Shown: in pieces, positions 25,790 through 60,043 of the stretch | How positions within the stretch are numbered: the first letter of the stretch is position 1 | How the letters are laid out: every line of letters begins with the position of its first letter | NCBI GenBank assembly: GCA_000467715.1 | Contig: AJFK01000015.1 | Location: 26,261 to 90,260 of the forward strand | Length of the DNA stretch: 64,000 nt | DNA from: Hysterium pulicare CBS 123377 | Lineage: Eukaryota > Ascomycota > Dothideomycetes > Hysteriales > Hysteriaceae | Reading direction: 5' to 3' | Program-made: the position numbers and the translations under genes | Notes under the pieces: generated by a model | What the model saw: only the letters and a program-made list of their open reading frames with translations | Told to the model about the DNA's origin: nothing | Databases searched by the model: none

Positions 25790-26308
25790 AGATATGAGCG
25801 TGCAACATCTTTGAGTGTTAGGGCGCATCTATCTAGTAACCGACAACATGAAGCATGCATTCGCGAGACGTAAGTGGTATAATGATGAAGAAGAATAACG
25901 ATGAAGAACAACTAGCTTTGTAGACGGGAAAGCCTCTTTAATGTCGAGAAACTTAGGAAAATATGCTACAGCTCCAGCGCTCGGTGGCGTTAGAGTCTGA
26001 GGATTCAATGATGACTGATGAGACAGGAGCGCATTACATCATTTCCAAAGACTATTGAGAGAAACACGACAATGGTAAATCTCCGATTCCGGTAGCAGTA
26101 TGCTCAACTTCCACAAAGTTTCCGAGACCGCAAAAGTCATTGCTGTTGCTGTTGTTGTCGCACTTGCTGCTCCTGTATAGGAGACGATTGAAGCGACGGA
26201 TGCCGCTGTTGTGCAGCTAATCGCCGAGCTTCTAAGTCTTGCTTTTCCTGTTGCTGTCGCGCCTCTAACCAAGCCTCGAGATGTCATTATGGCAAAACGA
26301 GCGGCTGA
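25790..26308. other. Non-coding decay region
   Basis: Between the DUF6594 remnant and the Clr5 remnant. Frames are broken, and a GTTGCTGTTGTTGTCGC-like low-complexity patch lies near 26143-26160. No intact gene. Confidence 0.4.
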
Positions 26309-40081: not shown

Positions 40082-41371
40082 TAGGTGAATACCGCCATAT
40101 TCTATTTGTTGTCGAGGTTTAAGGGCTGATTTTCTCCCCTGTAGTCCGACGTATAAGAAGACTGGAGGAGGGTATCAGGGTTTGGGGCAAGACGATGTGG
40201 ATGATAGAGTATGATGGAATGCTGGGCTCGAGGATACGGCAGATGAATGCAGCCGTTGTTTCTTGCGGTTGCTATTACGTTTCTATATTCTTGTTATTTG
40301 CCAGAGGGGTCACCTTTTCCGCCCTGCTGGTTAGCTAGTTGAAAGGTCAGTTGGCTAGTAGATGAGACCGATCATGAGACTCCGAGAACGGAGGATACGA
40401 ATTGTTGTACGATACAGATTCGGATATATACAGGACAGGAATCAACAACTGTTGGTGTAAATATGAAGAATGTCGCTTCAAGCTTCCGTCGCGAATGTTC
40501 GGAAGAGGGCTGAGAGATGCAAGAACGAATACATTCACTCCCGGAGGATGGAGGTGGAATTGATGGGCGCTAGGAGCGGATGGCGGGTCGCATGCTTCAT
40601 AAAGCGCAACACCACGCTTGGCCGAGATAAGGATCCCGATCCGTTATCAGCATCCCACCACACTTTCTTTGTCACACACGCTCCTGCAACAGCCAGAATC
40701 AGTAGTAGCCCATCATCCATTATGCCTGTAATCTGGGGTAAGGCCGATGCTATGCTGGGCAGGTCAACAAGTTCGCGGATCACCCGAGGCCGCCGGGTTG
40801 ACGATGACCTTCTCGCCTTACACCTCTATATCTCTCGAACCCATTTCTTATTGTCTTCATTCGTCCCTCGCGATAGAGTTTGACTATCGGATTTCCTTCT
40901 TCTCAGCGATCGAATCTTATTTGTTGTGGCTTATTGATCTTTCCCTTTTCCTATCCGGCGCGTACTTGACTGTGGGGATCCCCGAACTGTACGACGTCAA
41001 CGGACTATAACCATCCAGCTGCATACTTCTCTTGCGTAGTACTTACACTGTTGAGTCTGAGAGTATTCCCAATTGCCAGGTGTATTTCTACATTTGAGTG
41101 CTGTCACCTCTTACATTCAACGTCAGCTGAAAGCTGAGTAGTGGCTGAGACATCTGGACCGCGTGGCTTAGAAGCCTCACCAGTCACCACCTGAACGTAG
41201 CGACTGACTGTATGAGGCTTCGCTAAGGGGAAGGCTTCAAGATTATCAGAGTCAGCAGAGGAAAGCAAGAAGAAACACTGAGTGCAGCTCTTGGGTTCAT
41301 ATACCCAGCTGGCCCAGGAGTGGCTTGCTGGTGTTGCCCACAATCCCGCAATCCTCCCCGCAGATGGCAAC
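40082..41371. other. Intergenic region, 1.3 kb
   Basis: No gene I can support on either strand. It contains pyrimidine-rich stretches before the PQ-loop gene start. Confidence 0.5.
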
Positions 41372-42925
41372 ATGCTACCCTACTCTACCCTTCATCTACT
41401 CGAAGCCGCATTACCTCCGCACTGCGAACCTACAAACGACTTCCTAAGGCACCTCTCCGCGACCTTCCATACCTGCGTGCCGACCAACCTCGCATTCATC
41501 TCTACACTGCTAGGAACACTGAGTATAGTGGCATGGCTATTTGCACAACTACCGCAGATATTCAAAAATCATAAACTGAAGTCGACATCGGGACTCAGTC
41601 TGTTCTTCTTGGTAGAATGGCTGTTGGGTGATCTATCCAATCTCCTCGGTTGCATCTTCACAAGACAGGCATTATGGCAGGTCATTCTCGCATGTTATTA
41701 TGTCTGCGTAGATTGCATGCTGGTGGGGCAATGGGTGTGGTATGAGAAACTAAAGCATGGAAGACCACTCCGACCAGCATGGAGTCGAACGAGCACATTG
41801 GCAGATAATGACGATGACCAAGACGGTATGAGAGAAGTCCTCGACGGCGTCAGTATCGCCAGCAGCAGTCGCACAACTGACCGACCACCAACATCAGATA
41901 AGAAAGACCAACCGACGAAACCCACCCTTGCCGTACCCGTGAATCGCTCCAACCCGATGGACGTCTTTCGGATACCCAACTTTGCCCGCTCTCCTGGATC
42001 GCCAGGCCAAGGCTCGAGTATGCCGAATACGCCTAGCCAAGGTGGAACACCAGGCACGACGCCCCACCGAACCATTCACCGCCTAGCCCGCTCAAACTCA
42101 CCCATGCCATCTCCTAAGACGATGCTCTACATTTCCCTCGTGCTAGCCATCATCTCTAATACCTCCACCGCCACTCCACTCCGTCCGTACACCCCTTCTC
42201 CGTACCAGGCCCTTAGCTCCCGCTCCCTTCACATCTCTGACGACCAGCAAATCAATGCGAGTGCCGCAGAACAGGCTGGGAAGGTTCTCTCGTGGATGAG
42301 CACGTTCCTCTACCTCGGGTCGCGCCTTCCCCAGTTGTACAAGAACCATGTTCGCAAGTCGACAGCAGGGCTTAGCCCCACTCTCTTCGCAGCTGCCTTC
42401 TTCGGAAACCTCTTCTACAGTTCCAGCATTCTCACCAACCCCTGCGCCTGGAATGACTACGCAGCAGGCCGAGGCCGAGGCTGGGTTGAGCCCGAAGGAA
42501 GCGTCCGCGCCGATTGGATTCTTCGCGCTGCCCCATTCTTCCTCGGCGCAGCAGGCGTCCTAGTCATGGACGCAGCCGTCGGCGTGCAATTCTGGTACTT
42601 CGGCGACGGAGACGAAGGACGCGGACGACTCAAACCAGACACTATCATTATTGTCAGCGAAGGCGACCGTGGAGATGGAATGAGGATCAAACGAAAGTGG
42701 AGATGGAGGAGGGTTAGTGGGTGGATGCGAGGTTGGGTCCCTAGTGTTTCTGTGGCTGGTACACCGAGCGGAAGTGTTGCGGGTACGCCCAGCTCCAGCA
42801 TTTCGGGGACGCCGAGGGGACCGAGTCCGGTTCGGAGTGAGAGGGGCGAGAGGGGGGCTTTGGATGAGGCGAGGAGGCTTTTGGGGACGCACAGGACGGG
42901 CAGTTCTTATGGGACTACGCCTTAG
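41372..42925 (+). CDS. PQ-loop repeat transporter, Ypq/PQLC2-like
   Basis: Single exon, 517 aa from the Met at 41372 (the frame upstream to 41282 has only a GTG). Two PQ-loop repeats: LPQIFKNHKLKSTSGLS with the PQ at about residue 60, and LPQLYKNHVRKSTAGLS with the PQ at about residue 320. Each is followed by the typical FxxExxLGDLSNLLG or FFGNLFYSSS helix. The family exports cationic amino acids (Arg, Lys, His) from vacuoles or lysosomes. About 180 residues of polar, Ser/Thr/Pro-rich linker separate the two halves, longer than in the animal proteins but common in filamentous fungi. The C-terminal cytosolic tail repeats the peptide SVAGTPS three times and ends Ser/Arg-rich. Substrate assignment is by family only. 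Confidence 0.9.
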   Translation: MLPYSTLHLLEAALPPHCEPTNDFLRHLSATFHTCVPTNLAFISTLLGTLSIVAWLFAQLPQIFKNHKLKSTSGLSLFFLVEWLLGDLSNLLGCIFTRQALWQVILACYYVCVDCMLVGQWVWYEKLKHGRPLRPAWSRTSTLADNDDDQDGMREVLDGVSIASSSRTTDRPPTSDKKDQPTKPTLAVPVNRSNPMDVFRIPNFARSPGSPGQGSSMPNTPSQGGTPGTTPHRTIHRLARSNSPMPSPKTMLYISLVLAIISNTSTATPLRPYTPSPYQALSSRSLHISDDQQINASAAEQAGKVLSWMSTFLYLGSRLPQLYKNHVRKSTAGLSPTLFAAAFFGNLFYSSSILTNPCAWNDYAAGRGRGWVEPEGSVRADWILRAAPFFLGAAGVLVMDAAVGVQFWYFGDGDEGRGRLKPDTIIIVSEGDRGDGMRIKRKWRWRRVSGWMRGWVPSVSVAGTPSGSVAGTPSSSISGTPRGPSPVRSERGERGALDEARRLLGTHRTGSSYGTTP

Positions 42926-43273
42926 GGTGTAGGTTTGGTAGTGATCTGATGTTTTATGATCTTTGGAAATTCGCAATTTGCATTGGGAAGGTTGGCATGG
43001 CATGGTTTGATGTGGAACAGCATATTCATAATGAGTTTTTTATTTTATTAATTTTAACCAAGCGTAGATTTCCGCCTTTCGCTTTTTTCGTTGTCACAGC
43101 ATCTAATAGATGATTTATATAGATTCTCCTTTGGTCATTGATATCTAGATATCATTTCACATCTAGTTTTGTCTCGATGCAATTCTTCTTCCACAGTATC
43201 ATCACTAATCTTGATCAAGCTTCCTCAATACTAGTGTTGTTCATCACCATTACGTCTTCTTCCAATTTCATAG
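42926..43273. other. Spacer before the tandem array
   Basis: AT-rich 3' flank of the PQ-loop gene. The homology to the array seems to start near 43230-43280. Confidence 0.4.
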
Positions 43274-43319
43274 CCTCTCTTTTTCTCAACTTCCGCAACG
43301 CCCAAACCCATTGCCTGAT

Positions 43320-43529
43320 TTACCTGAAGCTTTGGAGCTCGCCCGGTCTCCGAGCCATCGAGTAGTTTGTGTCGTGCTTTAATTCAGACCCAAAGAAAGT
43401 CCCGTCCCCACACCCGCATGAAGCTTCAAAGGTGTCCACATTGAGCAGAATTTTATTTGCAGCGCAGACACAAGAGCACATCGCCAAGGTTGTCTCATGA
43501 GTCTTTAGTGACCGAGACGAACGCGACAT
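43320..43529 (-). CDS. Array unit A short ORF
   Basis: 69 codons beginning MSRSSRS, with six Cys in the middle portion (CSCVC and a CGCGD pair). No signal peptide is evident. It starts at the position predicted by the promoter core. Resembles unit B only over the first few residues and the start context. Function unknown, translation unproven. Confidence 0.35.
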   Translation of the reverse strand: MSRSSRSLKTHETTLAMCSCVCAANKILLNVDTFEASCGCGDGTFFGSELKHDTNYSMARRPGELQSFR

Positions 43530-43600
43530 CAAACTGATTCCAGTTCAGAGTTTGGTGTCTTCAAGAGTGGATGAGTGTAGGGAAGGGGATAGGGGAAGGG

Positions 43601-43648
43601 GTTTATATATGTGTACGAAGGGAAAGGAGGAGAGGAAGGGATTAGTAA
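43601..43648 (-). promoter_or_regulatory. Array unit A promoter core
   Basis: Minus strand: TTACTAAT at 43648-43641, then ATATATAAAC at 43610-43601. The ATG of the unit ORF is at 43529, 72 bp past the box. Confidence 0.6.
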
Positions 43649-44087
43649 GCCACATTTGGATCCTCTGCGGGAGAGGAAAGACGGTGACTGGAAGGTATAT
43701 AATCCCCACTTTCCTTTTTATCAACGACTCTACACATCAATCTTCTGAGCATTGAGTTTTAGTTGGTTGAAACCAAAACGTCTATGACGCACCGGCGATG
43801 GTTTTGCGTAGTTGGAGTGGAGATGTGACCAAATGATGGGATGCGGAAGCCTTATGGTCATCTTTTCTTTGGCCTTGGGAAGGTGGGATATGAGTACTAG
43901 TTGGGATCAGGGATAATCACCTAACAATTCAGCATTACTGAGTGGTGAGCATGATCATTTCTCTATACTCATGTCCTTCATCACCATTTCAACCTTCATA
44001 CCTCTCGGGGATTTTTGCCCAACACTCACATTCGACGCTGGCTTTGCCAGATCCAGCACGGTAGTCAGTAGTACCTGGCTTTATCAC

Positions 44088-44393
44088 TCACGCGTCGGCA
44101 ATGCCAATGACCTTCACCACCACCGCTTCTCCCAGTACTATCCATGCCCTACTAGATACGGCTCCCACACCACCCAAACCCATCGCTCCATCGCTCTCCT
44201 CGACTTGCCAATTTTGCAACTCTCCCACATCAGCCGGTGTTGTCGAGTTGATGACCGCACCCCCAAGTTCCCATCCATAACCACGCATAGTCGACCCTTG
44301 TTTTTCAATTGACCCTTCTTCTCTAGTGCGGAGCCAAGGCATGACATCAGAAGAGAATTCTTTTTGATTGAGGTGTCCGCGATAACGCGACAT
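44088..44393 (-). CDS. Array unit B short ORF
   Basis: 101 codons, the longest ORF of the array. It begins MSRYRGH, has a Gly/Val-rich C-terminal half with hydrophobic strands, and ends IGIADA. No family recognised and no signal peptide. The same stretch is open on the other strand (43971-44312), which weakens the coding argument; the promoter position favours the minus strand. Confidence 0.4.
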   Translation of the reverse strand: MSRYRGHLNQKEFSSDVMPWLRTREEGSIEKQGSTMRGYGWELGGAVINSTTPADVGELQNWQVEESDGAMGLGGVGAVSSRAWIVLGEAVVVKVIGIADA

Positions 44394-44485
44394 CAAGCTT
44401 TTTCCCGTCCTGGGTTTGGTACCTGATCTGGAGTCAAAAGCTAGGCTTGTGAGGAAGAAGTAAGACGAAGAAGTGGGGGAAACGG

Positions 44486-44543
44486 GTTTATATATGTGTG
44501 GAGGAGGAAAAAGGATAGGGAGAGAGGGTGCGGGAATTAGTAA
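44486..44543 (-). promoter_or_regulatory. Array unit B promoter core
   Basis: Minus strand: TTACTAAT at 44543-44536 and ATATATAAAC at 44495-44486. The ATG at 44393 is 93 bp past the box. Confidence 0.6.
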
Positions 44544-45163
44544 GGCGTAGTTCAGGAGGGAGTGGTGTGATTGGCTGTATAAACCTTGCTTCGTCTCTGA
44601 TTCCCAAGTCACAGACCGATCTTCTGCGCACCACGCATTCATGGAGTGGGTCATAAACTCAATAGATAGGATGGCGATGGCTGTGTGGAGGTTGATGAAA
44701 AAGAAGAAGAGGCGCAAACCCATGGTTGGATTTGGATTTGGGGACTTTGGAAGGTGGGGGATGGCGTGTGGTTGCGGGACTTCATGCCCATGATCCAAAA
44801 GATTTAGACTCACTGAGTAGTGAGCATCATTACTACCCGACGCTGATACACACCACGACTTCCTTTCAGGAGAAACTCATCCATATCCCTAATTTCTAGC
44901 CACACTACTTTTTTCGCCCAACCCTTTGCATATTGCAGAGAGTTTCCATACTCCAAGCCATACATCCACCAGTCGGCGCAAGGGTTTAATTCAAGGACTA
45001 AAAATCATAATCCCCACATTCAAGAATTTGCATCATTGTACTCAATTTATTATAGAATTTGCTGCCAACACACCCGAAAGCTTCGAGACCGGACATAAAA
45101 GGGTCAGAAATTGCTGGGTGGAATGTAGGGAAGAAGGAAGAAGGGGGAGGGTGAGTAAGGGGA

Positions 45164-45219
45164 GTTTATATAGCCGTTCAGGAGGAAGAGAGGCACGTGG
45201 GATGGAGGGGATTATTAGC
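45164..45219 (-). promoter_or_regulatory. Array unit C promoter core
   Basis: Minus strand: a degenerate CTAATAAT at 45218-45211 and TATATAAAC at 45172-45164. The ATG at 45096 opens a 32-codon ORF (to 44998) beginning MSGLEAF. This is the weakest bZIP-like element but one of the best TATA boxes. Confidence 0.5.
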
Positions 45220-45801
45220 CAGCGTGTGGAGGAGGTATCTTCTGCTAGGTAGTGGGTATATGAACATCCTTTCTACTACTTTGAGTTCGGTACTGCGGCA
45301 TGGCATCGCTGCTGAAGTATCGAGCTATTGTTTTATTAACTCAACAGCTATGCCTTGCGTATAGTCTTGTGTGGAGCCTTAGTGGGTGTAGCCTAGATGA
45401 CCAGGTTTCTCGATCCATGGGTGGGGTTTGTTAGGGGCTGGAGTTGAGAGTTGGGAAACTGAAGACCAGTTGATAACGTCGTGCTGATATCGGTAACAAT
45501 GAGCATCATCGACAATCTAAAGGTCGGCATTATTCTTCGCCAAAAGGGACATTTCGAACTATCCTCGTGGTCGCCGCAAAGCACGAGTATTGTCCCTATG
45601 TCCAACCATCAATTCGGTATCCTGACCACTTTTTGAAAAGATTCTCTTCCGCCCTCCGAGCCATTGCTGTTTCCAGCGTTCATATTGATCGGATCTGAGA
45701 TCCCCGAGAACTTCCAGGTCTCATGCCTCGGATCACCGCGGTCGTACTAGCAGATAAGGCGGTGGATTTGGTGCGTAAAGAGCGAAGGGAAGGAAATGGG
45801 T

Positions 45802-45847
45802 GTTTGAATATTCACGAAAGAAAGGGTTGAAACGGTGGAATTAGTCA
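45802..45847 (-). promoter_or_regulatory. Array unit D promoter core
   Basis: Minus strand: TGACTAAT at 45847-45840 and a weak TATA position, TATTCAAAC, at 45810-45802. The ATG at 45724 opens only 14 codons (to 45680), so this unit is probably decayed or non-coding. Confidence 0.45.
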
Positions 45848-45904
45848 GCCGACAGCCTTGTCGGCTCTTGGGAGGTGGGAAAGGGGGTAGGTGGGAAAGG
45901 GGGT
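45848..45904. repeat. Hairpin and 16-bp tandem duplication upstream of unit D
   Basis: A 7-bp inverted repeat GCCGACA / TGTCGGC with a 4-base loop occupies 45848-45865. It is followed by two exact copies of a 16-bp G-rich unit (45873-45888 and 45889-45904). Both lie directly upstream of the unit D bZIP-like element on the minus strand. Confidence 0.7.
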
Positions 45905-46090
45905 ATATGAATGTCTTTTCATTCCATTCTACATTCTATATTTCAACGCTCAACCTTATGGAGTAGTATTGCTGGACATCAAGATCCAGTCCAGCAATAC
46001 GATCATGGCTGTGTGCGCTGCTTTGGAGAAATATTAAAACACTGCGCGATATATCCCATGGGTGGGATTTCTCGGGTCTGGTCTTCAGCC

Positions 46091-46327
46091 TTAGTAGATC
46101 AGAATGAAGTCACGTTGAAGGCGTATAGTCGGGATATGAAGCGATAAGCGGCGTACGGGATGATGAAAGGCATCACCACTCTTCGAAGTCGACAATAAGC
46201 ATGCCCTCGGCTGTATACGTATTCCAACCCCCTTTCCAGGAAGCCTTTTTGAGCGTTCCGCGCTCTCCAGGCCATGGCTTGTGCTGGTGATACTCTTTGG
46301 TGAAATTTCGAAGTACCAGGACCCCAT
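46091..46327 (-). CDS. Array unit E short ORF
   Basis: 78 codons beginning MGSWYFE from an ATG at the position predicted by the promoter core. Basic, Ser/Arg-rich, no recognised motif. A second open frame overlaps it (46361-46173) and looks more protein-like, so this reading is uncertain; see findings. Confidence 0.3.
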   Translation of the reverse strand: MGSWYFEISPKSITSTSHGLESAERSKRLPGKGVGIRIQPRACLLSTSKSGDAFHHPVRRLSLHIPTIRLQRDFILIY

Positions 46328-46408
46328 CGTAAGGACAGTCCGCTTTAGTTTGATAGCCGTTCTAGCAAGACTTGGGTGTGGAGAAGAGAGTGAGAGGTTT
46401 TGAAGGTC

Positions 46409-46453
46409 TTTATGTATTCGGAAGAAAGAGTAGATGGAGAGTGGGATTAGTCA
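46409..46453 (-). promoter_or_regulatory. Array unit E promoter core
   Basis: Minus strand: TGACTAAT at 46453-46446 and TACATAAAG at about 46417-46409. The ATG of the unit ORF at 46327 is 82 bp past the box. Confidence 0.5.
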
Positions 46454-47051
46454 GCTGAGAACTACGAGAATGCAGAAGAGTGTACAAGTCTGCTCTTTTA
46501 CTCGACAAGTTGGAATACGTCTTCACGACGAAGCCTGAACGCCGTCGAGCTTTGCTTGAGCAAGAGCCTCGACTCACAAACGAAGAGCTGCGTAAGGAGC
46601 CTTTCGGAGAGTTATAACCAAAGCAAACGATGGATTCTGGACATGAGTGGGAGTCTTTCCACAGTAAGGGAATAAGTAAAGAGGCTGGATTCGATTAAGT
46701 GATAGCATTTACAAATCAGTAGTGAGTAGCACCACTGCCGCTGAGCTCTAATGATCATCATCAGCAACTCCTATTCGAAATATTATTCCCTCCGCCACAA
46801 CAGAAGATGAGTCCACATTCTAAGCTTCAACCTTAGCTCTTGAAGCTTCGAAACCTTCAGTTCTAGGGGGCGGAGTTGCAGTGTCGAAAGCATTCGCCAT
46901 TTCTCTGGAGTCTGTCGCAGTTTACTCTTTTGACCAGGCCGTATTTCCAGTGCCAGGGGTCTGGAAACCCATAGAAGCAGCTTGCAGACTGTATCTGAAC
47001 TCGCGGGCAGATTTTAATGTGGGATGTTCAAAAGGACTGCGGGGTATGCTT

Positions 47052-47091
47052 GTATATGCTGGAAGACGAGGGAGGTAAGAAGGATTACTAA
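47052..47091 (-). promoter_or_regulatory. Array unit F promoter core
   Basis: Minus strand: TTAGTAAT at 47091-47084 and a TATACAA-like box at 47058-47052. The ATG at 46972 opens only 16 codons. This is the most distal recognisable unit. Confidence 0.4.
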
Positions 47092-47376
47092 GAAGAAAGA
47101 TTCCTTACCGAGAAACAGAGATATAGGCACGTTGGTTTCTTTGACTTCATGAAACTCACTTGCAGAATATTAAACCTCAGTCAGTTAGAAAGTTGACTCC
47201 CAAACACTTACGCCTTGGTGCAAATCTGTGAGACGGATCTGTGAGACGGATCCAAAAGAGTGAGAACATCTCCCATGAGCTTCATCTCGAAATTGGGGAG
47301 ATCTGGTGGGGGGGATCTGGTTGCAATAGCAAGAAATTCCATATAGTGCGCTATATTACTACTAGACGCTGATGGT

Positions 47377-47708
47377 ATTCCTCGTAATCTTTCTGTCTTC
47401 GGCGTTCTTCTTAGTTATAGCTATCGTCTTTCAGATTGATCATAAGCAAGTTTCTCCCGTTGAGTTTATTTTGCCTTTAGATCGATGAATCCTGGTAGCA
47501 GTCGAGAAACACTGGAGCCCGAATTCCTTGTATTGGGCGCGGAGCAGATTGGCAGAGTCACTTAAGTTGGATGAAATGATACCTAGGGTTCAACGTGAAA
47601 TACGAAAACAAGACTCATCTCTAATGTAATAATTATGGCAATACCAAGCGCCTTCTGATTCACTGCTGTATCGTCACGCGTATTCGTGACACTTCCTCAC
47701 CGTCATCG
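47377..47708. other. Spacer after the tandem array
   Basis: Leader and promoter of the F-box-like gene. An exact 13-bp tandem duplication (ATCTGTGAGACGG) lies just before this, at 47224-47249. No gene. Confidence 0.45.
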
Positions 47709-49328
47709 ATGATGGAGAAAAGATTTTCCGCGCTTTCACTTGGGTCAAGTCCACTCAATCCACAATCCCCAATCTTAAGTCATAGTAGAACGTTCTCTAT
47801 CATGACCTCGGCGTCAACCATGGCGCTCATTTCGGCCTGTCCCACTGAACTCATCGAGAATATCACCGAATTACTCGAGCTTGAGGACAACATGGCTTTC
47901 CGCCTCGTCTGCAGAGACATCCAGACCAAAACTTTCCGGTTCTTTTGCAAGACTTATCTTCGGAAAATAGTAGTGCGCCTAACCAGTCAAAAGCTACAGT
48001 CTTTTGTAGAACTTTCTCGCAATGAGCAGCTGCGCGGCTTTGTACAGGCTGTGGTCATTGAATATGATGAGGATTCACTTGTCGACATTTGCGGATCCGA
48101 CTATCCTTTCAAACCCGGCTCCTCGGTGTCACAAACGCGTTTCTTCACCATGCATTTCCCGCATGTCCGGAGGGAGATGCGCAGCTGGGGAAATGGTAGA
48201 CCGCCGAGAAGGTTATATTGGTATGGTTCTGAATGGGGACTACCGAAAGTCAAACTGACTACAGAGTTGGCGGACAGGTACAACTCACTGATTCAAGAAG
48301 AGCGTCATATGTTCGATTTGCGGCTTGACTGTCGAATGCTCGCCGAAGGACTCGAGGGGTTTCCGTATCTGAAAGCCATGACACTGTGGGACTGCAAATT
48401 GGACTGGTGCGGTCCAACTTTCTGGAAGTACGAGGATGATGCAGTACAGGGCCGTCCCGCAGGTAGATGTTTTCCCATGCATCCCTTTACCACAATTGTC
48501 TCGGCTTTCGCATCGTCTCGCAGGCAGTATCGAATCGAAGAACTGGCTCTACGGTTTCAGACAACTTGTAAGCATGTCCTCGACTTACCTGTTGCCCAGA
48601 TGAAGCAACTCAAAACGTCCCTACAGAGTCTGCGCAAACTCTCCCTTGACTTCTACATGAGCTTTGGAAAGTGGGAATTGAGTGACGGTGCAATCCTTGC
48701 AAAATTCCTCCAAAGCGCTCCAAATATCGATGACCTCCGTCTACGCAAATTTTACTACCACGATATGTCGACGACGCCAATCGGGAGGATGACTGTTGGT
48801 GCCGCCTTACCCAAGCTGAGGACCCTTTCTTTGGAAGCATCTAATATAGATACTGATGGGTTTCTCGAGATTCTGAATGCATACAAGGGGAGTCTCCAAC
48901 GTCTGAAACTCGAGTATGTCACGCTTATCTCCAGTGACTGGAATGACGTCTTCTCTCACCTACGCGACATGCCCCACTTGAAAGACGTGGTGGTCCACCA
49001 GCTGAGGACCGAAGATAATCATGGATCGAGCATAGATCCTACGGTATTCCGCAGTCCCCAGGGAGTAAGAGCTAGCCGAGAGAATGCGTACCAGGTAGCT
49101 CACTATGATATCCCTGATGGTACACAGCGTCGACGGCATGTGAAGGAGGCCGAGCTATGTAGGATCTTGGCGGATGGAGGGAAGCGCCTCGAATGGGACA
49201 AAACAGGGGTTTGGGGAGATTTTGCGGGTTCAGAAACTCGCCCAGGAATCGACGACAAGGCAGTAGCTGCTTCTGTTACTGAATACTGCGATACTGAAAC
49301 CGGTAAGATGATACAACAAGTTTCTTGA
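47709..49328 (+). CDS. F-box-domain protein
   Basis: Uninterrupted 539-aa frame with two adjacent ATGs (47709 and 47712) at the start. Residues about 43-85 read ACPTELIENITELLELEDNMAFRLVCRDIQTKTFRFF, a good F-box: LP-like PTEL, LxxL, then the LRxVCxxW-like LRLVCRD. After it comes TYLRKIVVRLT, the typical strand following a fungal F-box. The remainder has irregular leucine-rich strands such as LRKLSLDF, IDDLRLRKFY, LRTLSLEASN and LQRLKLEYV, consistent with LRR-like substrate binding. Likely an SCF substrate receptor; target unknown. It resembles the 20-22 kb F-box gene in layout but not in obvious sequence. No intron. Confidence 0.85.
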   Translation: MMEKRFSALSLGSSPLNPQSPILSHSRTFSIMTSASTMALISACPTELIENITELLELEDNMAFRLVCRDIQTKTFRFFCKTYLRKIVVRLTSQKLQSFVELSRNEQLRGFVQAVVIEYDEDSLVDICGSDYPFKPGSSVSQTRFFTMHFPHVRREMRSWGNGRPPRRLYWYGSEWGLPKVKLTTELADRYNSLIQEERHMFDLRLDCRMLAEGLEGFPYLKAMTLWDCKLDWCGPTFWKYEDDAVQGRPAGRCFPMHPFTTIVSAFASSRRQYRIEELALRFQTTCKHVLDLPVAQMKQLKTSLQSLRKLSLDFYMSFGKWELSDGAILAKFLQSAPNIDDLRLRKFYYHDMSTTPIGRMTVGAALPKLRTLSLEASNIDTDGFLEILNAYKGSLQRLKLEYVTLISSDWNDVFSHLRDMPHLKDVVVHQLRTEDNHGSSIDPTVFRSPQGVRASRENAYQVAHYDIPDGTQRRRHVKEAELCRILADGGKRLEWDKTGVWGDFAGSETRPGIDDKAVAASVTEYCDTETGKMIQQVS

Positions 49329-57600: not shown

Positions 57601-59639
57601 CTAAAACGAAAAAAGTGATTCGGGTTGACGCAGTCCCGCTCGTCAAGTTGGCCGCATTTTACATCCCCCGTCTGGCGTCTGTGTGTAAATTGTCTTCCAC
57701 GCACCCAGCATCAGCCAGGCTAACGGTGGGAACAAAAAGGCCGCGGACCCTAGCCTGCTCCCCAACAGGTAGCCTTTTGCTCGGATCCGGTACGGGATTG
57801 AGGAGACAACGAGTGCAGTGCGGGTATCGATACGTGTTTCGCAGGGGTGAGCAGTGGTCCTGCGGTGCAGATTGCCTCAACATGGAACCGCACAAATCTG
57901 GCCTTTGGCCGTGCCCTTGACGCTTCGTGACTAGCTCGCGTCGAGGCCTTGCGGTGATTCGTTGCAAGCCGGAGGACCGAGGGATGCACTCATCGGGATG
58001 CCAAAATTATTTTTTGCAAAAATGAGGATTCTGTTCGATCAGCACACTGCTTCTCATCAGCGGCGTTGGACAGGGTTCGGGCTCGGAAATAGATGGTTTT
58101 TAGGGTAAGACAGTCATGATTAGGCCCAGCAAACCCATAGCGGCTTGTTGACGTTCGTATCGACCTGAGTCTGCCTGTGGAAGCGAAACAGCTGGAGACA
58201 CCACAGCTCTTGCTACTTGTCTGCAGGCCCTTTCTTTGGGGTGTGGTGTGTCGTGGGTGGCAGCGTCTCTCCCAACGAAGGCGAGCCAGGCAAATCAAGC
58301 ACGGCATGAGCGGAATGATGCACGCTTTCGCTCAGATGAATGCCATTCCAGACCGACTTGCCTGAGTGTCTGATGATACTATTGAATGGATGGGATTCCT
58401 GCTTGTGCTCGCGCTCTGCCCTGCTTGCCTCGTCTGCACGACGCTATACGCCATCCCTAACCTCGAGCGCTGCCCGTCTGCTTACGGTAATTAGTAGAAA
58501 ACTCAGATACAGGCTGGGCCGCCGTCGCGGGATTCGTGGCAGGGCGGTAGCGGCGGTGGAGTTGGGCCAGGAGGACGAGTGTCTGGGTTTGTGTCTGCGT
58601 GAGTAGTGTCTTCATGGTTGCGCTCCGCCTTGGCCGGGTGCAGCAGGCCGCTCTGCAGCCGTAAGGGATCTGAAAATTACCATCTCATCAGTCGCTTTGG
58701 TGCGCGCGACAACAACAGCCGTGTGGGCCGCCCAAGGTTCCAGCAAGCAGCACCATTATTATGGAGCGGCGCACGCAGCCAGACAAAGCCCGGCCGCCCC
58801 TCTCAGGCAGCGCGGCATCGCCTCCCCAGGTGCAAGTCAACGAAATGGCCACCAATCACGGTTGCCGTCGAACGAGGAGCATCGCAGACTGGCTCCGAGC
58901 GGCAGACTTTGTCAAAGGCTGGAGAGGCCGGCCGGTGCAGGCACTAGGGCAGCATCGGGCATAGCAGCAGGGCCGCTGGGTGGTGGTCGGCGACAGCGCT
59001 GATGGGATGTGAATGTTGCTGCTTTCTGACTTCATAACTCCCAAGCCCTGCCGCCGGAGCGAGAGCGAAAAGCGCAGGCGTGTGCGTGGTTGCGCGTCCA
59101 GCCTATCCAAGCCATCACGACTAAGCAGCAGCTGGGTGCAGGCATGGTGGTCATGGACTTGTCCTCACGTTCCCCCTTCGCCATTCACATCCCGGTGAGA
59201 GTGAGGCCTGGCGGAGACGTCGTAGCGAATCCCACGGACGGCGGCGTCTCTGCGACCTGCTTGCAACGCCCGCCTGTGCTTGTCGTGCCAGACTGCTTGT
59301 CCTGCTTGTCCTGCTTTGTCCCATAATTAACCCGTACGAGCGCAGGCCTATTCCTCTTCGGCCCTTGTTGCTTGTCCGCCGCTGTCCAGTGCTTGCATCC
59401 ACCCCACCGGCGTCAAGGCGCGGTTGAGGGTTGATGTCAGAAGCTGCTTCTCATTTGGATCAGCCTCTTGGGGCGTTCGTTCGTTCCAGGCATTGGAACC
59501 TTCCGACTGCCCATGGACACAGTCACGACTCCGTGTGAATAATGTTTTATCAAATCCCAATGGCCCCAAGCCATGCCTGCTCACGGAAAGCGAAAGCAGC
59601 AGCTTGGAATCGTTATACGCCAGCCCTCCCGCTAACCCT
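54601..59639. other. Gene-free stretch, GC-rich part upstream of the cyclin gene
   Basis: No ORF with a recognisable domain. It becomes clearly GC-rich from about 57.4 to 59.6 kb. Short direct repeats: a TCTGGACATCTGGACATCTGG run near 55553-55575, and three copies of a TGCTTGTCC-like 9-mer at 59294-59322. Probably a long regulatory or untranslated region belonging to the cyclin gene, or a non-coding transcript; I cannot tell which. Confidence 0.4.
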
Positions 59640-60043
59640 GACCGTTGATAACCTCACCATCCTCTTTATTCTCCCAAAGGACCCCGGGACCCTTTAACGT
59701 CGCCGCTCCCTTCCTCACTTGCTCCTCCATAGCTGCTCAGTACCTCTCCCTGGAAACAGCGTTGCACTTGTTGCTCAATCGACATATTTGCCAACATACC
59801 TCCCGTCGAATAGGCAGTCTCCTTGCTTCAAACATCGGTTACTGCAGCATACAGACTGCTCGCCGAGAACGTTGCCAAACTCACCCATTCTGGCAATGCC
59901 GTGATCCCCATCAGACCGACCTTTTCATTGACTAGGCGAAAATTAAAACCATTCTCATGGTCGTCAGCACGTCAACATATCAACTCTCCTAACCCCCCAG
60001 AAGCCAAGCAACCTTCACTCCAAACCTCACCAACATCGCCCAT
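59640..60043 (+). promoter_or_regulatory. Pyrimidine-rich leader of the cyclin gene
   Basis: About 400 bp of CT-rich sequence with little purine, ending just before the ATG at 60044. Typical of fungal core promoters and leaders. Confidence 0.5.

Follow-up and report, generated by a model that had tools for sequence, protein, structure and literature searches.

A tandem array of small promoter units with Yap1-type sites in the fungus Hysterium pulicare

The array on contig C13

We analyzed a stretch of 64,000 nucleotides of the ascomycete Hysterium pulicare CBS 123377 (hereafter the window; positions 26,261 to 90,260 of contig AJFK01000015.1, here C13, in assembly GCA_000467715.1), in which a first-pass annotation had noticed six minus-strand promoter cores followed by divergent short open reading frames (ORFs). 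Sequence comparison indicates that positions 43150-47375 hold six head-to-tail minus-strand units, A to F, which are duplicates of each other well past the promoter. Comparisons were made within this one genome, a 37.2-Mb assembly of 596 contigs. The units, each delimited by pairwise alignment and nhmmer, are as follows:

43150-43965, minus strand: unit A, whole duplicated unit (401 bits with a profile that includes A)
43955-44840, minus strand: unit B, closest relative of A
44830-45515, minus strand: unit C
45505-46195, minus strand: unit D
46185-46740, minus strand: unit E
46730-47375, minus strand: unit F, most diverged, a weak member

The duplication was assessed by two shuffling tests. 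When non-overlapping units were locally aligned pair by pair and compared with 200 dinucleotide shuffles per pair, 11 of the 15 pairs beat every shuffle. A-B is the strongest (751 versus a shuffle maximum of 254; 495 of 732 positions identical across spacer, promoter and body), B-F (242 versus 213) and D-F (205 versus 200) lie barely above their shuffles, and C-E, A-F, C-F and E-F do not exceed them. With shorter units and 60 shuffles that preserve local composition, nine of the 15 pairs beat all 60, E-F and C-F now included; B-D, B-E and B-F are among the pairs failing to exceed every shuffle. Unit F is, on these alignments, a marginal and weak member of the array. A full-unit profile gives 224-401 bits for the six units, as expected of a profile built from them. 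From A to F, successive TATA or TATA-like boxes are separated by 885, 679, 640, 602 and 642 bp. Each box is followed by its first ATG at a distance of 79, 100, 76, 88, 87 and 84 nt, respectively. The six minus-strand cores are where the first-pass annotation had put them, and the similarity past the promoter words, on which it had staked the existence of a family, is borne out by the 11 and nine pairs above shuffles, with F weak.

No unit remnant rises above its own 60 shuffles in the flanks (42600-43149 and 47376-47900), and a promoter model, R1, finds no further match in the window up to E=10 besides the array. To the left lies the gene for a PQ-loop protein (41282-42925; Pfam 3.7e-36) and to the right an ORF (47709-49328) with a weak F-box match (E=0.068, under the Pfam cut-off), followed by a DUF1275 gene. 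The G+C content is 0.57 at 58001-60000 of the window versus 0.46-0.54 in the rest of it.

Promoter elements on the two strands

The cores combine a Yap1 response element (YRE, a documented Yap1/AP-1 site), which is kept in five of the six units in three variants, with a TATA or TATA-like box 35-50 bp downstream of it. The weak boxes of D-F were positioned by alignment, as were some weak boxes among the 19 units catalogued in the genome as a whole.

43642-43648, minus strand: YRE of A, TTACTAA
44537-44543, minus strand: YRE of B, TTACTAA
45212-45221, minus strand: site of C, degenerate (GCTAATAATCC region), without an exact YRE
45841-45847, minus strand: YRE of D, TGACTAA
46447-46453, minus strand: YRE of E, TGACTAA
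47085-47091, minus strand: YRE of F, TTAGTAA
43601-43608, minus strand: TATA box of A, TATATAAA, pyrimidine-rich downstream
44486-44493, minus strand: TATA box of B, TATATAAA
45165-45172, minus strand: TATA box of C, TATATAAA
45803-45812, minus strand: weak TATA box of D, AATATTCAAA
46408-46414, minus strand: weak TATA box of E, CATAAAG
47050-47056, minus strand: weak TATA box of F, TATACAA

In the six-unit alignment the normalized excess identity reaches 0.43 at the YRE and 0.31-0.32 around the TATA box; it is mostly 0.05-0.18 in windows of the body, two of which stand at 0.24 and 0.31. High values (0.32-0.35) also occur in some blocks upstream. Among invariant blocks the YRE is the densest, equalled in 11 of 10000 column shuffles. 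Downstream of the TATA box the minus strand is pyrimidine-rich, and such a stretch after TATA is usual in many fungal core promoters.

We compared the element with the Yap1-site 7-mers TTACTAA, TTAGTAA, TGACTAA, TTACAAA, TGACTCA and TGAGTAA, drawn from passages of PMC6545440, PMC2614496 and PMC8977021; of these, PMC2614496 lists TGACTCA, TGAGTAA and TTAGTAA as Yap1 sites, and PMC8977021 describes TTAGTAA and TTACTAA as bound by Yap1 in Penicillium. As in the Yap1 (basic leucine zipper, bZIP) targets of these papers, the same 7-mers or their complements are found near the core promoter, here in five of the six C13 units and in 14 of 19 units overall. The targets named in those passages are, however, protein genes (such as FLR1, pcbAB and brlA), whereas ours are repeated units without a detectable conserved protein. 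Since the variants match documented Yap1 sites, the differences from unit to unit move between known sites, and the earlier "stress" label fits the promoter element. The promoter had also been called conserved, which holds in so far as the data support a tandem family whose promoter is preserved while the body has diverged, but C is without an exact YRE and the TATA boxes of D-F are weak. The combination of a weak TATA box with an intact YRE in D-F speaks for partial decay in which the activator site has been retained.

The opposite strand also carries promoter-like features:

43696-43703, plus strand: TATA box of A, TATATAAT
44578-44584, plus strand: TATA box of B, TATAAAC, 99 nt ahead of ATGGCTGTGTG
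45257-45262, plus strand: TATA-like box of C, TATATG
45904-45909, plus strand: TATA-like box of D, TATATG, 101 nt ahead of ATGGCTGTGTG
44677-44687, plus strand: start block of B, ATGGCTGTGTG
46005-46015, plus strand: start block of D, ATGGCTGTGTG

A plus-strand box thus follows the YRE in four of the six units (A and B have a strict TATA, C and D have TATATG), and is weak in E and F. Across the catalogue, a strict opposite-strand TATA past the YRE occurs in 4 of 18 units versus 4 of 77 background TATA sites (p=0.04); counting TATATG, a widening of the criterion made after C and D had been seen, gives 6 of 18 versus 5 of 77 (p=0.005). The block ATGGCTGTKTG, spotted by eye before it was counted, occurs at three places in the 303.6 kb scanned (a scan that left out L001 and L005-L007), namely on the plus strand of B (44677) and of D (46005) and on contig C536 (L041), and all three copies have a TATA or TATA-like box 98-101 nt upstream. 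At another locus, on contig C549 (L044), TATA boxes stand on either side of one YRE, on both strands. The plus-side pyrimidine bias is weaker than the minus-side one. We regard the units as likely divergent promoters. Their earlier description as minus-strand units was correct as to the minus cores but incomplete, given that the plus side is also promoter-like and that counterparts exist on other contigs. The pervasive divergent promoters and cryptic transcripts of yeast likewise involve two-way transcription from one promoter, as is proposed here; those of yeast are spread over the genome, whereas here the divergent promoter would itself be the tandemly duplicated unit.

A plus-strand ATG is invariant in the six aligned units (43854, 44722, 45417, 46058, 46643 and 47275); in several of them it sits in a CCATGGGTGGG-like block, and it might represent either a start codon or some DNA motif.

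Similar loci on other contigs

Loci outside the array were chosen through YRE-TATA patterns. The pattern KACTAATYCCN{10,38}TATATAA occurs at five places in the genome, two of them in the array, and at none in the control; the three places outside the array were all examined. A looser pattern yields 72 sites versus 51 in its control, from which two contigs, C137 and C549, were taken up after being judged CT-rich by eye. The collection comprises: 1) a second array on the plus strand of C387 (L003:1700-4850, that is C387:75699-78849) with up to six TATA or TATA-like boxes, in which four of ten unit pairs beat all 60 shuffles and u4-u5 scores 517 versus a maximum of 238. 2) C573 (L002:2884-4610), with a pair of minus-strand units at a distance of 685 bp and a plus-strand unit, all of the same promoter kind, where none of 300 shuffles reaches the pair score of 284 (one a-b comparison was discarded, its segments sharing 61 bases). 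3) A tandem pair on C137 (L043, C137:21800-22950; 258, reached in 2 of 300 shuffles), of which R1 matches the first unit only. 4) A tandem pair on C549 (C549:51640-52440; 217, none of 300). 5) C536, the one among 12 further CTKACTAATYCC sites that fits R1 (24.3 bits). 6) C50 (L004, C50:63000-69000), likewise chosen by pattern match, with 15.4 bits for R1 and TATA windows scoring 204-216, as high as those of C573; here a tandem duplication of 1300-1800 and 1800-2300 is matched by none of 300 shuffles, two other stretches are unremarkable (8 and 41 of 300), and no unit layout was possible.

As to their surroundings, the C387 array has on one side a stretch that bears a HET-domain gene (L028, 6.7e-30) and on the other an alpha/beta hydrolase gene, and some of its starts read ATGTCC(T/G); the C573 units adjoin a plus-strand ORF of 694 residues (522-2606). 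Three YRE-TATA pattern matches fall inside 6.3 kb on a further contig (C550:2592, 6863 and 8836), which might be another array.

The 14 catalogued units with a documented YRE have it 24-50 bp ahead of the TATA box, an arrangement seen at 3 of 77 background and none of 20 CT-rich TATA sites. By these comparisons tandem units with the same YRE-TATA spacing lie on C387, C573 and C549, and probably on C137, and a related promoter lies on C536; given this shared spacing, the C13 array probably belongs to a dispersed class. Common descent of all the loci is probable, and a convergent promoter design possible.

This bears on an alternative in which the C13 duplication alone is real and the other loci merely share the generic fungal TATA-plus-pyrimidine promoter, through convergence or through the way they were picked. 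It gains from the selection of the loci by YRE-TATA patterns, with two taken by eye from the 72 sites, from the poor yield of R1 (one of the 12 extra extended-motif sites, and only the first unit of C137) and from three family boxes that score near background. We nevertheless consider it improbable: of the eight units that played no part in locus choice, such as second units, four carry a YRE (P=1.4e-4); tandem duplication recurs at C387, C573, C549 and probably C137; the palindrome described below took no part in the selection; and the other C573 and C387 boxes have mean TATA-window scores of 208-220 versus at most 181 in the background (a comparison that omits C-D, D-E and E-F, whose windows overlap, and the window boxes 43119 and 43121, which overlap unit A).

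The palindrome is represented in the C13 array by one element:

46752-46763, strand not assigned: palindrome-like element where E meets F, matching TGATGATCATCA at 11/12

At 10/12 or better, TGATGATCATCA has 12 occurrences in 11.4 kb of arrays, where most lie between units, versus 12 in 263 kb, a local ratio that is inflated because the element was defined from these loci; the genome-wide excess, 291 sites with at most one mismatch (11 exact) versus 43 for the reversed control, is not so inflated. A literature search on the palindrome gave no fungal paper, judged by title among the matches listed. The presence of such an element between some units, and of several loci in one genome, would suit an origin of the units from a mobile or repeated element, for instance promoter-bearing terminal repeats, that was multiplied in tandem and by dispersal and has since decayed. 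This origin strikes us as very improbable, since none of the eight inverted-repeat pairs in 42500-48500 is placed at unit ends as a terminal repeat and genome DNA searches with the arrays find no recent copies elsewhere. The array indices of repeat-induced point mutation (RIP) also lie within the range of the window, save for a slightly low CpG, and RIP itself was rejected as a candidate on that ground.

Coding capacity and interpretation

Four short ORFs downstream of the minus-strand boxes were tested:

43320-43529, minus strand: short ORF of A, 69 residues, MSR start, no Pfam match
44088-44393, minus strand: short ORF of B, 101 residues, MSR start, no Pfam match
44998-45096, minus strand: short ORF of C, 32 residues, MSG start, no Pfam match
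46091-46327, minus strand: short ORF of E, 78 residues, no Pfam match

The MSR start is common to A and B, as first noted, but limited to those two. Besides the four array ORFs, one C573 ORF is also without a Pfam match, and the best other match of the B protein in its own genome has E=1.97. Indels in multiples of three make up 19-27% in six unit pairs. Whichever of the six frames is used, A-B has 67-79 substitutions at every codon position, and A-C, B-C and C-D have 47-71, with no consistent excess at third positions. A six-frame protein comparison, whose set consisted of the array units and five stretches of four other contigs (C137 and C549 being left out), gave 22 matches at E<=0.1 versus 11, 17, 15, 20 and 15 in five shuffles, with a best E of 0.002 in real and shuffled sets alike. 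No reading frame is detectably conserved between units, the pairwise coding tests having limited power at this divergence; a frame kept between copies, as a protein-coding tandem family would have, was thus not seen in these pairs. A protein-coding family on either strand is unsupported by indel lengths, codon positions or the six-frame comparison.

A plus-strand peptide pattern seen by eye at the invariant ATG, [WM]V[GI]F, was not upheld by the six-frame comparison. Its DNA, searched against the genome, has 26 places with at most three mismatches versus 10 in the control, and the best other match is C573 (one mismatch), but the pattern had been built from the C573 match. Two further measures had no part in the assessment: a codon-usage score, which separates coding from spurious ORFs poorly (0.075 versus -0.060, sd 0.07-0.085) and was given no weight, and the best BLOSUM windows (up to 31), which were uncontrolled. 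The suggestion of a secreted peptide family is not supported by these results: the units show neither a coding signal nor a shared protein, and the four ORFs, none of which was scored with a signal-peptide tool, lack Pfam matches.

It is nonetheless possible, if short of an even chance, that the array goes back to an ordinary small protein-coding gene that evolves fast and whose tandem copies are in decay. The promoter would then still resemble itself as the part that varies least, with most copies reduced to pseudogenes and the ORFs to remnants. The first ATG past the TATA box reads ATGTC, resembling a start context, in 6 of 19 catalogued units, one truncated by the locus end (P=0.0008 at an expectation of 1/16, 0.054 at an assumed 0.15 for genes starting with MS; 1 of 20 CT-rich background TATA sites has it). 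Furthermore, the MSR of A and that of B are at homologous positions, the TATA boxes of D, E and F are weak, and unit u5 of C387 is without a TATA box and has ACGTCC where u4 has ATGTCC. Yet A-B, the closest pair, keeps no frame, with a 1-nt indel directly after MSR, the six-frame comparison stays at the level of shuffles, the tested ORFs lack Pfam matches and the B protein has no better genomic match elsewhere than E=1.97, all these tests being of limited power at this divergence.

Structured RNA was also considered and rejected. In the window there is no Rfam match at gathering score and no tRNA in a search with bacterial settings, and 138 windows of 120 nt show no general excess of stable structure over shuffles (mean z -0.13); the lowest values, -3.32 (45910, minus strand) and -3.03 (43870, plus strand), are extremes that may arise by chance among so many windows.

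The interpretation that we put forward, and to which we give an even chance, is that the array consists of old tandem duplicates of small, stress-type, divergent RNA polymerase II units, the products of which are non-coding or short unconserved ORFs. A Yap1-type bZIP activator would bind the YRE, with oxidative or chemical stress as the most likely trigger, and fire leftward transcription, with the first ATG 76-100 nt past the box, along with weaker rightward transcription. Rightward transcripts of one unit would then meet leftward ones of the next and may overlap with them. The transcripts would either be non-coding or contain short ORFs that are not conserved. Any selection would act on the promoter and on the act of transcription, and the promoter may be either selected or just the last part to decay. 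Among the identities proposed in the first-pass annotation, "non-coding RNA family" and "birthplace of new genes" would fit best, but no general RNA structure was seen.

Several results weigh against this interpretation and its extension to other loci. Within the array, several units may be dead, in view of the weak TATA boxes of D-F and the want of an exact YRE in C, and the palindrome reaches 10/12 at only one of the five C13 junctions; both this element and the spacing rule derive in part from these same loci. Beyond the array, CTKACTAATYCC is not enriched (13 sites versus 11 for the reversed control), and the plus-side profile finds nothing significant. Similarity across loci is weak (mean z 1.1-1.5; 14 of 63 cross-locus unit pairs lie above all 60 shuffles, where about one is expected), and genome DNA searches with the C13 and C387 arrays, by a method that skips common words, match only the arrays themselves. 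The full-unit profile gives 12.0 bits for a background stretch (L019) versus 19.3 for C573 and 18.4 for C387; unit u4 of C387 (168), unit a of C573 (190) and C536 (183) are near the best background TATA window (181); and the C573 a-b score of 284 falls just under the maximum of 285 among 60 composition-keeping shuffles.

The searched literature, as far as its accessible text goes, offers no description of such arrays. The nearest likeness is Pinci1 of Phytophthora infestans, which a review (PMC12566771) presents as predicted non-coding units of ~700 nt, condition-regulated and lying in many genome clusters. Here, too, related units are clustered at several places (C13, C387, C573, C549 and probably C137), though with a weak relation between places, and no conserved coding capacity is seen, within the limited power of tests that C137 and C549 lie outside. 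The high similarity between clusters is, in contrast, lacking, the organism is a fungus and the promoter spacing is conserved. Proto-genes, in the de novo birth of genes from transcribed non-coding DNA (PMC7841160), are transcription units with short unconserved ORFs, as our units putatively are; the present case differs in its proposed origin, the tandem duplication of a promoter unit.

A broader proposal, which we put forward as speculative and rather unlikely, is that these loci form a dispersed class of YRE-driven divergent arrays in which duplication copies promoters and not genes, generating many convergent, overlapping, stress-induced transcripts with new short ORFs; such arrays would supply double-stranded RNA under stress or serve as a nursery of new genes. 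Studies of gene duplication mostly deal with copied proteins. Here, across several copies and loci, the switch is what stays most recognizable and the product is without detectable constraint. If transcribed, the units would amount to natural replicate experiments on the origin of new transcripts and ORFs behind one kind of stress promoter, and would make it possible to test whether arrays of this kind feed into RNA silencing.

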